64,000 nucleotides of DNA, from assembly GCF_002310815.1 (NCBI RefSeq), contig NZ_CP011032.1:474001-538000 (forward strand). Reading direction: 5' to 3'. Below are positions 7,991-16,394 of the stretch, piece by piece; position 1 is the stretch's first letter, and every line of letters starts with the position of its first letter. Origin of the DNA: Pseudoalteromonas tunicata (GTDB taxonomy: Bacteria; Pseudomonadota; Gammaproteobacteria; Enterobacterales; Alteromonadaceae). The position numbers were made by a program, and so were the translations under genes. The notes beneath the pieces were generated by a model. The model was not told the DNA's origin, searched no databases, and worked only from the letters and a program-made list of their open reading frames with translations.

Positions 7991-10402
7991 CTATTTTGCT
8001 GCTGGTTTAGCGTTTTTTACATATTTTTCAAGCCATTGCTCTTGTTCCCACAATACATGAAGCAATGATTCACGTGCGCGATAACCATGTTGTTCATGTG
8101 GTAACATCACCAAACGTGCATTGCCACCTAAGCCTTTCATTGCGGCAAACATGCGCTCAGACTGCATTGGAAATGTGCCTGAGTTGGGATCTTCTTTACC
8201 GTGGATCATCAACATTGGCTCATCAATTTTTTCAGCATGAAAAAATGGTGACATATCGCCATACACTTGTTGCCCTTCCCAAAAACTTCGTTCTTCACCT
8301 TGAAAACCAAATGGCGTTAACGTGCGATTATAAGCCCCGCTTCGTGCAATACCGGCTTTAAATAAATCAGAATGTGCTAATAAATTCGCCACCATAAATG
8401 CGCCGTATGAGTGGCCTGCAATAGCAATGCGATCAGGGTCGGCAATGCCTTTATCAACCAATACTTTTACCGCAGCAGCTGCACTGTCGACTAACTGCTC
8501 TCGAAAGCTGTCGTTTGGAAGTTCATTGCCAGTGCCAATAATTGGCATTTTAGGGTCGTCAAATACCGCAAAACCTTGCGCTAAATGCGGCATTGGACCC
8601 CAATAGCTGACATTAACAAATTCATACGGTGAGTCTGTGACTTGGCTGGCTACTTTTTTATCTTTAAATTCTTGCGGATAGGCCCACATTAATACCGGCA
8701 AACGGCCTTGGCTGGCATCGTAATTTGGCGGTAAATATAAAGTACCTGTAAGCTCTACGCCATCTTTACGGGTATAGCTAATTTGCTCTTTTTTCACGCC
8801 ATTAAATTGTGGGGCAGGATGTGGAAAAAAGGTAAATTGGTTAACGGAATTATTGGCTAAATCACGAATAAAAAAGTTAGGTTGTTCGTTGGTTGATTCA
8901 CGCAAGGTAAGCACTTTTGTCGCTTCATTATTTAGCGTGACTAAAATGCGCTCGTAATACGGTGCAGCTGATTGCCACAAGCGTTGTATTTCGCCCGTTG
9001 CAAAATCAAAGCTATCCATAAATGGAATATTACCTTGCGGTGACGCGCCAATGCCTGTTAGCAATACTTTACTGTTATCAACTACTTTAATCACATTTTG
9101 GTTATATTGATTGCGCTCATACACAAAATTACCCGGATCTTTGTAATTATCATTGTAAGAACGTTGTTCAAATAACACGGTTTTTTCGCTTGGGTTATCA
9201 GGTGTGAATTTCCATGAGCGCACTTGGCGATCGCTAAAGCGCCAATCACTAATAATGGCAAATTGGCCGTTACCCCATTGAATACCACTAAAGCGGCGCT
9301 CAATCTTCATCAGTAAATTTGGTTCGTTTTTAAATGGTGCAGCCCAAGTATAAACAGAGTCATGAAAATCATGTTGTTGGCTCATATCGCCGCCATCAAG
9401 CGCTTGCGCCCATGCAAGTGTCGCTGGGTGGTCGTCGCGCCATTCAATGCTGCGGCGGCCTTCACGTACCGAATCAAATCCTTTTGGCATGCTTTCGCCT
9501 GAAGGTAAATCGGCCACAGTAATCACATTTTTACCTGCTTTATCCCAAATTTGGCTTAGCAGTGGAAAACGACTAGCAGGCACTAAATACGAAAACGGCT
9601 TTTTATATTGCGACACTAATAAATACTGGCCATCGGGCGATGGACGGTACTGATTAATAATACCCGGCTGACCTAGTTTCTTAATTTTTCCTTTGAGGCT
9701 TATTTCTGCCAATTGGGAAGTCGTTAAAAAGCTAAATACCGCTTCATCATGGGGTGACGTTAATAAATTTGAATAGGTACGAACCGCTGCTTTTTTACCA
9801 TCAGAGGTTTGAATAATTGGCTCAATATTGCTGGTTGTTTGTTTTGGAATATCGCTTGCGGGTGCCACGGTTAAACGGGTGTAAAAGCCCGATGAATCCT
9901 CTTTCCAGCGATATTTAGCCCCACCTAATGCGGCATTTATGGTGTTTTTGCTCACTTGATGTAACTTTTGGCTTTTTAAATCAAAGCGCCACAGTGTTAA
10001 GCCGTTATTGGTTTCAACAATAAACGCAATGTGTGCATTGTTAGGGGCAAACTGCACATCAAGAATTTTACCCTTAGGTAAATTTTTGATGGTAATGGTC
10101 GTGTCGTTGATTAGTGAGCGTAGCTCAATGCCGTTGTAGCCTGTAGCACGGCTGGTCGAAAAGATATTCGGATTAATACGCAAGCCAGCTAATTTGGCTT
10201 CTGGCTGGGCGAGTTCTTCGATGCTGGCAAGCCCTGGGCGGTTTAATACAGCAACCCATTGTTTATTTGGCGAGATGCTAAAACCCGGACGTTGAGGCGC
10301 ATCGACCAAATCCGCCATCATTTTATTTGGCGTTTGGTAGCCAGTATTGGCCAGCACCCATTGGCTAAGCAGTAATAAGCTGAGTAAAAATATTCGATAC
10401 AT
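7991..10402 (-). CDS. Exported prolyl oligopeptidase-family (S9) serine peptidase, glutamyl endopeptidase-like
   Basis: Secreted or periplasmic serine peptidase of 803 residues. A signal peptide, MYRIFLLSLLLLSQWVLA, is followed by a beta-propeller-like region (about 20-540) and an alpha/beta-hydrolase domain. The nucleophile lies in GHSYGAFM at about residue 665, the acid in HGKEDPNSGT near 738 and the histidine in PHEQHGYRARES near 771. SGAYNRTLTPFGFQ and the arrangement after it closely resemble plant chloroplast glutamyl endopeptidase (S9D), so cleavage after glutamate is plausible but not proven. A LysR-type gene lies 130 bases upstream on the same strand. A role in protein scavenging fits a marine heterotroph. 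Confidence 0.9.
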   Translation of the reverse strand: MYRIFLLSLLLLSQWVLANTGYQTPNKMMADLVDAPQRPGFSISPNKQWVAVLNRPGLASIEELAQPEAKLAGLRINPNIFSTSRATGYNGIELRSLINDTTITIKNLPKGKILDVQFAPNNAHIAFIVETNNGLTLWRFDLKSQKLHQVSKNTINAALGGAKYRWKEDSSGFYTRLTVAPASDIPKQTTSNIEPIIQTSDGKKAAVRTYSNLLTSPHDEAVFSFLTTSQLAEISLKGKIKKLGQPGIINQYRPSPDGQYLLVSQYKKPFSYLVPASRFPLLSQIWDKAGKNVITVADLPSGESMPKGFDSVREGRRSIEWRDDHPATLAWAQALDGGDMSQQHDFHDSVYTWAAPFKNEPNLLMKIERRFSGIQWGNGQFAIISDWRFSDRQVRSWKFTPDNPSEKTVLFEQRSYNDNYKDPGNFVYERNQYNQNVIKVVDNSKVLLTGIGASPQGNIPFMDSFDFATGEIQRLWQSAAPYYERILVTLNNEATKVLTLRESTNEQPNFFIRDLANNSVNQFTFFPHPAPQFNGVKKEQISYTRKDGVELTGTLYLPPNYDASQGRLPVLMWAYPQEFKDKKVASQVTDSPYEFVNVSYWGPMPHLAQGFAVFDDPKMPIIGTGNELPNDSFREQLVDSAAAAVKVLVDKGIADPDRIAIAGHSYGAFMVANLLAHSDLFKAGIARSGAYNRTLTPFGFQGEERSFWEGQQVYGDMSPFFHAEKIDEPMLMIHGKEDPNSGTFPMQSERMFAAMKGLGGNARLVMLPHEQHGYRARESLLHVLWEQEQWLEKYVKNAKPAAK

Positions 10403-13348: not shown

Positions 13349-13600
13349 AACTCTTCTTCTTTAAATTTTCAGTCAGTTTGATTGCTGCAAACGTTACATT
13401 TGTTTAATTAAAATGGCCAGTGGAACTTAATTAGTTGCGATTATTAAACTGTTTTAAAAAAATGTAAAAATGTAGTTATTTTGTAAATCAGTGAGTTAGC
13501 TTGTTTTTAATTTAATAATTTTTTAGATTATTTTTATTTTGTTGGCAATGATAGTTGTGATTAAGAAAATACGTCTACTTCTCATTACCATTTTAAGAAT

Positions 13601-14491
13601 ATGAAAAAAATAGCGTTATCATTACTCTCAACAGGTTTATTTATTAGCACATCATCGTTTGCGGGTGAAAATTTATTGGGTTATGTACAAGGATCTGAAA
13701 CCTTGCCTGAAGGTGCAATGGAGTTATATCAAAAATTAACTCAGCGTAATGATAAAGGGGCGGGAAAATACCGTGCGATAGACAGCGAAACTGAGTTTGA
13801 ATATGGCGTAACAGATAAGTTTACTGTGGCAGCGTCAATTAAAGGGATGTCGCTAAATACATCGGGTATTGTGATTGATGGCTACATGCCTTTTGATAAT
13901 GAATTTTCAATGAAGTTTGCTGGTATTGAATTAAAGTCGAAATATAATATTTTAAGCCCTGCACTTGATGATTTTGGTTTAACACTCGGTTGGTCACTGG
14001 ATTATTTAACGGTTGATCCACATTCAGGCCAAGACAAAAAAACCATTAGTTTTGAAAGTGATGTATTGATGCAAAAATACTTCATGGAAGGCCAATTGGT
14101 ATGGATGATGGATTTAGGCCTTGAAGCAACATCGGCGACCCGTGATGAATTAAGTGGCTTACCTGAAGGATTTGAATGGCCAACAGAAGCTGAAATGGAA
14201 ATTGAACTTAAAGCGGCGACAGGTGTGAGTTATCGTTTTGTTGAAAATTGGTCTGTCGGTTTTGAAACTAGCTATGAAGAAGAACACGAAACAGAAGTGA
14301 ACCTTGAGCGTTGGTCTTTATTTGCCGGTCCTTCGATTCATTATGGTGACCAAAAATGGTGGGCGACGTTAACTTACTTTAAACAGTTAGAAGGCGGCGC
14401 TGAAAAGTTTGATCAACAAGATGATTTTTCATTGCACTTAATTGAAAAAACTAAACAAGAAGTGCGTTTTAAAGTGGGTTTCAATTTTTAG
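13601..14491 (+). CDS. DUF6662 family outer-membrane-type protein
   Basis: Exported protein of 296 residues with a signal peptide ending near SSFA|GEN. The mature part is made of alternating hydrophobic/polar strands and ends in phenylalanine (VRFKVGFNF), the usual outer-membrane beta-barrel ending. Repeated short strands such as YGVTDKFTVAASI, FGLTLGWSLDYL, SYRFVENWSVGFETSY and WWATLTYFK support a barrel. The match to DUF6662 is by recollection of the family and is less certain. It sits first in a four-gene set with an FMN-binding protein, ApbE and a membrane protein, separated from them by a hairpin that might give partial termination. Role unknown; an outer-membrane partner of the flavin module is an inference. 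The 252-base region upstream is very AT-rich and holds no gene. Confidence 0.7.
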   Translation: MKKIALSLLSTGLFISTSSFAGENLLGYVQGSETLPEGAMELYQKLTQRNDKGAGKYRAIDSETEFEYGVTDKFTVAASIKGMSLNTSGIVIDGYMPFDNEFSMKFAGIELKSKYNILSPALDDFGLTLGWSLDYLTVDPHSGQDKKTISFESDVLMQKYFMEGQLVWMMDLGLEATSATRDELSGLPEGFEWPTEAEMEIELKAATGVSYRFVENWSVGFETSYEEEHETEVNLERWSLFAGPSIHYGDQKWWATLTYFKQLEGGAEKFDQQDDFSLHLIEKTKQEVRFKVGFNF

Positions 14492-14512
14492 GGCGTGTTG
14501 TTAATACTAAGT

Positions 14513-14550
14513 ACCGCTCAAACAATGGAGCGGTTATTTTTACTTTTAAT
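14513..14550 (+). terminator. Stem-loop between DUF6662 and FMN-binding genes, possible partial terminator
   Basis: ACCGCTC / GAGCGGT (7 base pairs, 8-base loop) followed by the T-rich TATTTTTACTTTT. It lies between two genes that seem to belong together, so it may set their relative expression rather than end the transcript. Confidence 0.5.
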
Positions 14551-14561
14551 TTGAGGCGAAA

Positions 14562-15110
14562 ATGACCAAATTGCCCAACCTAGTCTGGTTACCAGCAGCT
14601 GCATTATCGATGAATGTTTTTGCGGCAGATTATTTAACTGTAGCGCAAGCCCAGCAAGTGATGTTTGCAACGGCAGATGAATTTATTGTGCAAGCGGTGC
14701 ATTTAAATGATGATCAACTTGATGCGATTAAAGATAAAGCTGGGGTAAAACAACGATCGGCTGAACCAGATGTATGGATGGTAAAAGAAGGCGGCGAATT
14801 TGCTGGTTGGTTTTTAACTGATCAAGTAATTGGTAAACATGAATTTATTAGTTACGCCGTTGCCATTAGTCCTGCGGGTAAAGTAATAGGGCTTGAAATC
14901 ATGTCTTATCGTGAAACTCATGGTGGCCAAGTGCGTAATCCTGATTGGCGCATTCATTTTATGGGTAAACAATTAGGCGATAAGTTTAAACTCAATAAAG
15001 ACATCCCAAACATTAGTGGGGCGACGTTATCGTGTCGCAATATTACCGATGGTGTGAAGCGTTTATTAGCATTGCATGATGTGGCACTGCAAGCGATAAA
15101 AGTGAGTTAA
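14562..15110 (+). CDS. Exported FMN-binding domain protein with flavinylation site
   Basis: Protein of 182 residues with a signal peptide (about 1-21, ending VFAA|DYL) and one FMN-binding domain. The motif ISGATLS contains threonine 155, the expected site where ApbE attaches FMN by a phosphoester bond, as in NqrC and RnfG. ISYAVAISPAGKVIGLEIM and HGGQVRNPDWRIHFMGK are typical FMN-binding domain segments. The next gene, 3 bases downstream, is ApbE, the enzyme that performs the modification. The protein should act in the periplasm as an electron carrier. GAGG at 14553-14556 lies 5 bases from the ATG. It lacks the N-terminal anchor and other subunits of Nqr/Rnf, so it is not part of those complexes. 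Confidence 0.88.
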   Translation: MTKLPNLVWLPAAALSMNVFAADYLTVAQAQQVMFATADEFIVQAVHLNDDQLDAIKDKAGVKQRSAEPDVWMVKEGGEFAGWFLTDQVIGKHEFISYAVAISPAGKVIGLEIMSYRETHGGQVRNPDWRIHFMGKQLGDKFKLNKDIPNISGATLSCRNITDGVKRLLALHDVALQAIKVS

Positions 15111-15113
15111 AGA

Positions 15114-15923
15114 GTGTTACAAAAACGCATGCGGCCTTTGCTTGGCACTTTTGTTGAGGTTGCTATTGAGCAAGGTGATTTCTCGCAAAGTCATTTAAAT
15201 CAGGCTTTTGCAGCTGCGTTTAGCAAAATTGAAAACATTCAAACTTTAATGAGTTTTCATCAACCTGATAGTGCTCTGTCGGTGCTCAATCGTCATTCTG
15301 GTGTTTGGCAGCCCTGCGATCGCGACATTTATCGTGTTTTGAGATTAGCTCAGGTGCTTTATCGCTCAAGTTCGGGCTTGTTTAATATTAGCTGCACTAA
15401 GCCATTACAAACAATTGGTTTGTTACCGCAACATTTTGAAGATGAGATTTTTTCCAAGTGTAATACACCTCCTTTTTTGATAAATAATCATAGAGTTAAA
15501 ATTACTCAAGGTCATCAATTATGCGTTGATGGCATCGCCAAAGGTTATGCGGTTGATTGTGCGCAAGCAGTGCTAAAATCTTACGGTATTAAGGCCGGCT
15601 CTATTAATGCGGGCGGTGATTTAAGTGTATTTGGTGAGTTACAAATTGCAGTTTTTCAGCAAAATCAACACAATGAGCGTCAGTATTTAGGCCGTATTGC
15701 CAATGCTGCGGTTGCAACCTCATGTGGGTTGGCAACTACCTCACACCCTGCGGCGATTGTTGACCCTAACGGTGAAATAATTAGCGCTGGCTGTTGGTCG
15801 GTATTAGCGAAAAAAGCATGGCGTGCTGATGCCCTGACTAAAGTGGTTGCACTACAAGGGGAGGTGGTTGATTTGACGCCTTGGGGTGGGTTGCTTTTAA
15901 CGCCAGCGGATGGCCAGAGTTAA
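15114..15923 (+). CDS. apbE: FAD:protein FMN transferase (ApbE family), no export signal
   Basis: Flavin transferase of 269 residues. RPLLGTFVEVAI opens the domain; VDGIAKGYAVDCA, INAGGDLSVFG and the C-terminal ADALTKVVAL region carry the FAD- and Mg-binding positions. ApbE cleaves FAD and transfers FMN to a threonine in a D/SGAT motif; its neighbour carries such a motif. The start is GTG at 15114, 3 bases after the previous stop; an ATG at 15129 is an alternative. Most ApbE proteins are exported lipoproteins of about 330 residues; this one begins directly with the catalytic domain and shows no signal peptide or lipobox, so it is probably cytoplasmic. The usual loss is N-terminal only; motifs are intact. 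Confidence 0.9.
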   Translation: MLQKRMRPLLGTFVEVAIEQGDFSQSHLNQAFAAAFSKIENIQTLMSFHQPDSALSVLNRHSGVWQPCDRDIYRVLRLAQVLYRSSSGLFNISCTKPLQTIGLLPQHFEDEIFSKCNTPPFLINNHRVKITQGHQLCVDGIAKGYAVDCAQAVLKSYGIKAGSINAGGDLSVFGELQIAVFQQNQHNERQYLGRIANAAVATSCGLATTSHPAAIVDPNGEIISAGCWSVLAKKAWRADALTKVVALQGEVVDLTPWGGLLLTPADGQS

Positions 15924-15953
15924 TGACTTACGCATTAAATAAAAGGTTTAAAT

Positions 15954-16394
15954 GTGAAAAAACAATATTGGTTGATGAGCGCAATAGTCGTATTGCTGAT
16001 TATCAGTGGCATCGGTTTATACTTGTGTTTACCACCGAGTGAAGATGAGTTTCCGCACCCTTTTAATGGTACATTTCGCCAATTTCATGGTGCTGCTGCA
16101 TATCTAGCGCTGATTGGGCTCGGTTATATGCTTGGCGATCATATCGCAAAAAAATGGCGTTATTGGCGTCGTCACCTTGATGGTGTGATGCATTTAATAT
16201 TGTGGCTATTATTGAGCATAACGGGTTTACTGCTTTATTATCCAATTATGGTGTTAGACGCTATTGCTATGGGGACGGTGCATTGGTATTTAGGCGTAAC
16301 ATTATTATTGGTTTATCCTGCCCATGCTTCGCAATTGCAGCTCAAGCGCTGGTGGCGAAAAAGTCGTACTGGCAGAGCTTCTTCTGCGCCATAA
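15954..16394 (+). CDS. Four-helix membrane protein, possible cytochrome b-type redox subunit
   Basis: Membrane protein of 146 residues with helices at about 4-25, 44-65, 75-100 and 107-126. Histidines sit within or at the ends of the helices: H45 and H63 in helix 2, H80 in helix 3, H110 and H124 in helix 4. H110 and H124 are 14 apart, a common spacing of heme ligands in b-type cytochromes. With the upstream FMN-binding protein and ApbE this suggests a small quinol- or heme-linked membrane component passing electrons to a periplasmic flavoprotein; that is inference. GTG at 15954 is the start, with AAAAGG 7 bases upstream. I do not recognise a named family with certainty (DUF4405-like is possible). 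Confidence 0.65.
   Translation: MKKQYWLMSAIVVLLIISGIGLYLCLPPSEDEFPHPFNGTFRQFHGAAAYLALIGLGYMLGDHIAKKWRYWRRHLDGVMHLILWLLLSITGLLLYYPIMVLDAIAMGTVHWYLGVTLLLVYPAHASQLQLKRWWRKSRTGRASSAP

Follow-up and report, generated by a model that had tools for sequence, protein, structure and literature searches.

Ten flavinylation systems have been defined by their key genes, and neither DUF6662 nor the cytochrome described below is among these genes (PMC8238504). Thousands of genomes were found there to have flavinylation genes and no characterized system. According to work cited in PMC8238504, Fur represses flavinylation clusters of the PepSY type, both in Caulobacter and in Shewanella oneidensis. Heme b has been shown for one member of the DUF4405 cytochromes (PMC11334425, which does not mention DUF6662 in the parts consulted), and a cytosolic ApbE is known to serve a soluble fumarate reductase (PMC12052999). 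Here we describe a four-gene cassette of Pseudoalteromonas tunicata that can be compared with these systems. It lies in a stretch of 64,000 nucleotides, referred to below as the window (positions 474001–538000 of contig 1 of two; genome of 4.96 Mb). At 13601–16394 of the window, four neighbouring plus-strand genes, separated by gaps of 70, 3 and 30 bases, encode in this order a DUF6662 barrel, an exported protein that binds flavin mononucleotide (FMN), the flavin transferase ApbE and a four-helix membrane protein. We lean slightly towards the view that these genes form an extracytoplasmic electron-transfer module that responds to iron and reduces ferric iron by means of a covalent periplasmic flavoprotein.

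Linkage and composition of the cassette

A sequence-only reading of the window had grouped these four genes, and a check of the open reading frames found them where it had placed them. Comparison of gene neighbourhoods, on which it had staked the grouping, showed that the four genes travel together across many taxa. When named genome contigs were scanned for matches to an alignment of DUF6662, 155 pattern matches and 110 relatives emerged, of which the best 80 loci were kept; together with the window they make up the 81 loci mentioned below. All four genes were present in the same order in 72 of the 80 named loci (L025 and L049 being counted by eye). The eight exceptions include three loci that run off their contig (L033, L050 and L055), one with the barrel only (L063), two with only the barrel and the FMN protein (L045 and L068) and one without ApbE (L077). 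At L030, the eighth (about 9570–9620), a remnant of an apbE start lies 3' of the barrel and FMN genes, the picture of a decaying cassette.

Because the 80 loci had been fetched by means of the barrel, we drew 398 genomes across the phylum, including that of P. tunicata, and used a cut-off of E 1e-15 or better for the FMN subfamily. The barrel was present in 11 genomes and the FMN subfamily in 13, and both occurred in all 11, about 0.4 being expected. The grouping of barrel and FMN subfamily is thus far beyond chance. Moreover, 11 of the 12 barrel genes in this sample, that of the window included, head a full cassette. One genome with a full cassette also has a second, solitary DUF6662 barrel (G433; L124, 3895–4809). 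The two FMN-only genomes (G369 and G340) have the genes for the FMN protein, ApbE and the four-helix protein, with a gene other than DUF6662 in first place: a Porin_O_P-type barrel in G369 (L127; E 4.5e-8) and, in G340 (L128), a 559-residue protein that resembles the L127 barrel by eye and has no convincing Pfam match. A porin-like gene also adjoins the DUF6662 cassette at several Novosphingobium loci and at some others (L084, L086 and L087), and Porin_O_P matches 7 of 149 immediate neighbours. The same four genes are annotated on a Sphingomonas plasmid as DUF6662, FMN-binding protein, FMN transferase and hypothetical protein.

Among 60 genomes, 36 of them from the genus, DUF6662 was found in the P. 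tunicata genome only. This patchy distribution suggests horizontal transfer or loss of the cassette. An empty-site test for insertion gave no result: in a search of 25 congeners, neither of the flanking genes had a counterpart that was both close and fixed. No wider conserved neighbourhood was seen, the flanks being variable except for a small number of porin, FeoB, FTR1 and regulatory genes.

The first protein had been read as an exported, barrel-like one, which the DUF6662 match and the AlphaFold2 model bear out: the model has 12 strands, with a predicted local distance difference test score (pLDDT) of 83.7, and residues 1 to about 21 look by eye like a signal peptide. The closest solved folds are the outer-membrane channels 4rl8 and 5o65, and fold comparison indicates that the model shares its fold with 4rl8, a solved COG4313 channel. 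A sequence search of the PDB with the barrel gave no match; PF13557 is annotated on a few of its relatives. We considered the possibility that the barrel was the most conserved part of the cassette, and dropped it because the 80 loci were barrel-fetched and the barrels of the sampled genomes diverge more than the FMN protein.

The second protein scores above the PF04205 cut-off and has, as had been claimed, the attachment-type motif ISGATLS (NISGATLS with the preceding residue), in which T155 is the candidate flavinylated residue. The pattern [ST]GA[ST]xS occurs in 80 of the 82 FMN proteins of the 81 loci; the exceptions are a truncated protein (L033) and one with SGGT (L079). Thr155 of the window protein is the predicted site of covalent FMN attachment. 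The leader is signal peptide-like, hydrophobic and ends in VFA-A, and 81 of the 82 proteins, including this one, have an A-x-A-like junction; export was called by a simple rule (hydrophobic start plus A-x-A-like junction). In a divergent cassette (L121, 4093–4644; G371), the leader of the FMN protein is twin-arginine-like (RRQFIKS), which would allow flavinylation and folding ahead of export. Two cassettes contain tandem FMN-binding genes (L084, 8938–10104; L087, 7409–8574), the second copy having NISGATYS.

A profile of the FMN protein matches RnfG structures (best E 2.4e-7), RnfG being the closest solved structure by sequence. Yet the protein is below the family cut-offs of both rnfG (39.7 vs 102) and nqrC (19.6 vs 144). 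It shares with NqrC and RnfG an FMN-binding domain with an SGAT-type site, but it has an A-x-A cleavage-type leader where NqrC and RnfG carry an anchor helix. The sequence-only reading had set the cassette apart from the Nqr and Rnf complexes and held their other subunits to be absent. Pfam revealed no such subunit, either in the cassette or among the four flanking proteins that were scanned; the point needs refinement for the genome as a whole, which encodes two more ApbEs and two more FMN_bind genes, one amid Nqr genes and one amid Rnf genes, as judged by eye from their neighbours. Since the Nqr- and Rnf-linked FMN subunits are encoded elsewhere, the locus in the window represents a third, separate flavin system.

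AlphaFold2 confirmed the four helices of the fourth protein (residues 2–24, 38–67, 71–93 and 103–142; pLDDT 90.5), which had been noted for histidines resembling heme ligands. Its matches to cytochrome b561 (PF01292, 26.5 vs a cut-off of 30.1) and to DUF4405 (PF14358, 19.9 vs 26.7) are below threshold, and a sequence search of the PDB gave nothing useful. A direct homologue search returned a single, near-identical match, so relatives were traced by gene position. Among 41 aligned members, 18 match PF01292 and 10 match DUF4405 at E 0.01 or better. The four histidines (H45, H63, H110 and H124) are conserved in 69 of 69 membrane open reading frames for which hydropathy was the sole criterion of selection, and profile searching added 14 membrane proteins, all 14 with the pattern. 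The topology is positive-inside in 41 of 41 members, so that at each membrane face a histidine from helix 2 would lie together with one from helix 4. Di-heme bundles and cytochromes b are among the closest solved folds. We regard the protein as a candidate di-heme b-type cytochrome. Taken together, the conserved four histidines and [ST]GA[ST] site support well the earlier proposal of a separate flavin electron-transfer module.

An ApbE without signal peptide

ApbE, correctly recognized beside the FMN protein by the sequence-only reading, has a further property that had escaped it. The 81 loci contain 74 ApbE genes. When the start was taken as the first start codon reaching at most 35 bases into the FMN gene, 22 residues or fewer preceded the domain in all 72 parsed cassette ApbEs, that of the window included. 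The ApbEs of L009 and L010 also start short by eye, and the ApbE motifs are kept in the cassette enzymes. The Nqr-linked ApbE of the same genome has, by eye, a lipoprotein-type leader. Since the cassette ApbE lacks a signal peptide, flavin may be attached prior to export, which would be the simplest reading. This differs from the case of the fumarate reductase, where the partner of the cytosolic ApbE is soluble and not, as in the cassette, exported (PMC12052999).

The idea that a signal-less ApbE marks this cassette alone was rejected, as such enzymes are also found beside DUF3570 and DUF2271 (loci L129 to L139 and L150 to L164). All ten ApbEs seen next to DUF3570 have short starts and no hydrophobic leader by eye; next to DUF2271, five lack a leader and five more are equivocal, again by eye. 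The leaderless ApbE is therefore part of a wider pattern. Of note, the literature treats these DUF3570 and DUF2271 partners as extracytosolic. One of the pairs is in P. tunicata itself, where a DUF3570 barrel with TGAS lies beside a signal-less ApbE on contig 2 (G000:C2:160624-162753; L002, L129); this is a second barrel-linked flavinylation pair in the genome.

The link to iron and the proposed function

In a first scan with the Fur consensus over the 300 bases upstream, the best match was reached by at most 5% of 60 shuffles in 36 of the 81 loci. The main scan covered 210 bases before the barrel gene, with 335 mostly intergenic promoters of the same loci as controls. A Fur-like site agreeing at 14 or more of 19 positions was found in 22 of the 81 cassettes and in 11 of the 335 controls (Fisher p 6e-10), some of the 81 being close relatives. 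With the threshold raised to 15 positions or more, 10 of 81 cassettes and 2 of 335 controls qualified. A matrix was then derived from 19 of these 22 sites and applied to 12 further loci (from nine genera, with four loci from one genus and L117 repeating L022); in 11 of them it did better than at least 97% of the 200 shuffles. Judged from these promoter sequences, Fur-type regulation of the cassette appears to recur across classes. The Fur control of PepSY clusters would be an analogous precedent.

Iron permease genes occur in the flanks of at least six of the 80 loci (L048, L050, L070, L075, L082 and L083). FeoB is found at L048, L070, L075 and L083. FTR1 is accompanied by a cupredoxin at L048 as well as at L082, and L050 is assigned both permeases by likeness to L048. 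Only the nearest two genes per side were scanned with Pfam, and farther genes with one motif and one query, so that six is a lower bound. FeoB_N matches three immediate neighbours, of which one has been identified (L075) and the others may be other GTPases.

Linkage of the genes, conservation of the motifs, the folds of the barrel and of the four-helix protein and the Fur-type sites of relatives are computational observations; going beyond them, we infer the hemes, the attachment of FMN, the direction of electron flow, the use of iron as the substrate and the role of the barrel as follows. The four-helix protein would bind one b heme close to either face of the membrane, two in all, and conduct electrons across the inner membrane, the quinol pool being the probable, assumed donor. 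It would reduce FMN held covalently on Thr155 of the periplasmic protein, onto which ApbE would have loaded it, probably in the cytosol. Most likely when iron is limiting, the flavin would in turn reduce periplasmic ferric iron or a ferric chelate, and Fe(II) would then enter via FeoB, FTR1 or a similar permease. The DUF6662 barrel would be an outer-membrane channel admitting the substrate, or would serve to dock the flavoprotein there. The sequence-only reading had already brought in covalently bound FMN, a quinol as donor and electron delivery to the outer membrane, all of which are kept here as predictions. More tentatively, the cassette could be a self-contained form of reductive iron acquisition, combining a non-TonB channel, a minimal two-heme four-helix cytochrome and a flavoprotein that is flavinylated in the cytosol before export. 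Flavinylation in the cytosol followed by export would reverse the order assumed for extracytosolic flavinylation.

Several observations weigh against a role in ferric iron reduction. The promoter in the window has no clear Fur site (p 0.65 by consensus; p 0.06 by matrix, against 200 shuffles), 59 of the 81 cassettes score under 14/19 for the consensus, and L089, from the set of 12 further loci, shows none. None of the four flanking window proteins scanned with Pfam matches an iron family. Among the flanking genes scanned as above, no FeoB or FTR1 was found at 74 of the 80 named loci; the six loci that have them are all metagenome-assembled genomes (named lineages Hydrogenophilales and Thiobacillus). 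Three of the 80 loci (L045, L068 and L077) have the barrel and the FMN protein but no ApbE of their own, a part that a different ApbE could play. The electron route itself is a prediction at every step, and Fur control would fit equally well with a flavin-for-iron economy.

In that last case, which we regard as unlikely, the same chain would operate under iron starvation with the flavoprotein replacing a heme or Fe-S carrier and feeding another periplasmic reductase. The use of flavinylation instead of cytochromes where iron is poorly available has been discussed (PMC8238504). If iron were being spared, however, a cassette that itself encodes a putative di-heme protein would be surprising, as would the retention of an outer-membrane barrel, or of another barrel in its place (L127 by Pfam, L128 by eye), and the FeoB and FTR1 neighbours at six loci.

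We also considered a small extracellular electron-transfer conduit, in which the flavoprotein would dock in or under the DUF6662 barrel and reduce extracellular acceptors. The leading position of the barrel gene (72/80 named loci and 11/12 sampled barrel places) and hosts such as Shewanella, Gallionellales and Sideroxydans speak in its favour. Yet a 12-strand barrel would be too narrow for a folded FMN domain, and its 296-residue sequence has no [ST]GA[ST] site, CxxCH or cysteine. Many other hosts, such as Acinetobacter and Novosphingobium, are not known for extracellular electron transfer. We consider electron export improbable.

Equally little credence is given to entry of another small molecule, such as an organic acid or aromatic compound, via the barrel and its reduction in the periplasm, since, although the closest solved barrel folds include the COG4313 channel 4rl8 and flavinylated organic acid reductases are known, Pfam finds no reductase domain in the cassette and iron-type regulation recurs across classes.

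Table 1. Features of the cassette: feature, positions in the window, strand and basis of the assignment
DUF6662 outer-membrane-type barrel, 296 residues	13601..14491	+	PF20367, E 1.3e-86, 291.3 bits vs cut-off 27
Exported FMN-binding protein, 182 residues	14562..15110	+	PF04205, 42.2 bits vs cut-off 22
Thr155 codon (ACG), predicted FMN attachment site in NISGATLS	15024..15026	+	Position check and motif conservation
ApbE flavin transferase, GTG start, without signal peptide	15114..15923	+	PF02424, 97.7 bits vs cut-off 25.6
Candidate di-heme cytochrome b with four membrane helices, GTG start	15954..16394	+	AlphaFold2; Pfam matches below cut-off
His45 to His63 (helix 2), predicted heme ligands at both membrane faces	16086..16142	+	Four-histidine pattern
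His110 to His124 (helix 4), predicted partners of His45/His63 (putative pairing)	16281..16325	+	Four-histidine pattern
Weak Fur-box-like site 5' of the barrel gene, candidate only	13577..13595	-	Best matrix match

Comparison with known systems

Extracytosolic electron transfer by ApbE-flavinylated proteins is known as a general kind; its DUF6662 four-gene form was not found described. Literature searches, which left supplementary files outside their reach, gave no paper on this cassette and none naming DUF6662. The link to iron and the ApbE without signal peptide are also new with respect to the sequence-only reading, and the latter raises the question of where a leaderless ApbE loads an exported protein.

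The cassette has in common with PepSY-like clusters (DUF2271, DUF4198, ApbE) that ApbE is accompanied by an exported flavinylated protein and a putative heme membrane protein; these clusters differ by another substrate domain and a three-helix cytochrome, and some have a TonB receptor in place of the DUF6662 barrel (PMC8238504). DUF4405 cytochromes resemble the four-helix protein by their four membrane histidines and their position beside apbE, but they have six helices instead of four, the window protein scores below their cut-off, and their clusters often encode a flavodoxin-type substrate, unlike the cassette (PMC11334425). The pair of DUF3570 and ApbE also combines a barrel-type protein with a signal-less ApbE; there, however, the barrel itself is flavinylated, whereas the DUF6662 protein of the window lacks such a motif (PMC8238504). 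In P19-FTR1 iron clusters, an iron permease adjoins an FMN-binding protein, as it does at a few cassettes, but FTR1 and the cupredoxin stand beside these few cassettes and are not members of them (PMC8238504). Set against these systems, the cassette provides one flavinylation group with a constant gene layout, a probable regulator and a function that can be tested, and DUF6662 and a compact cytochrome of four helices each gain a likely role.

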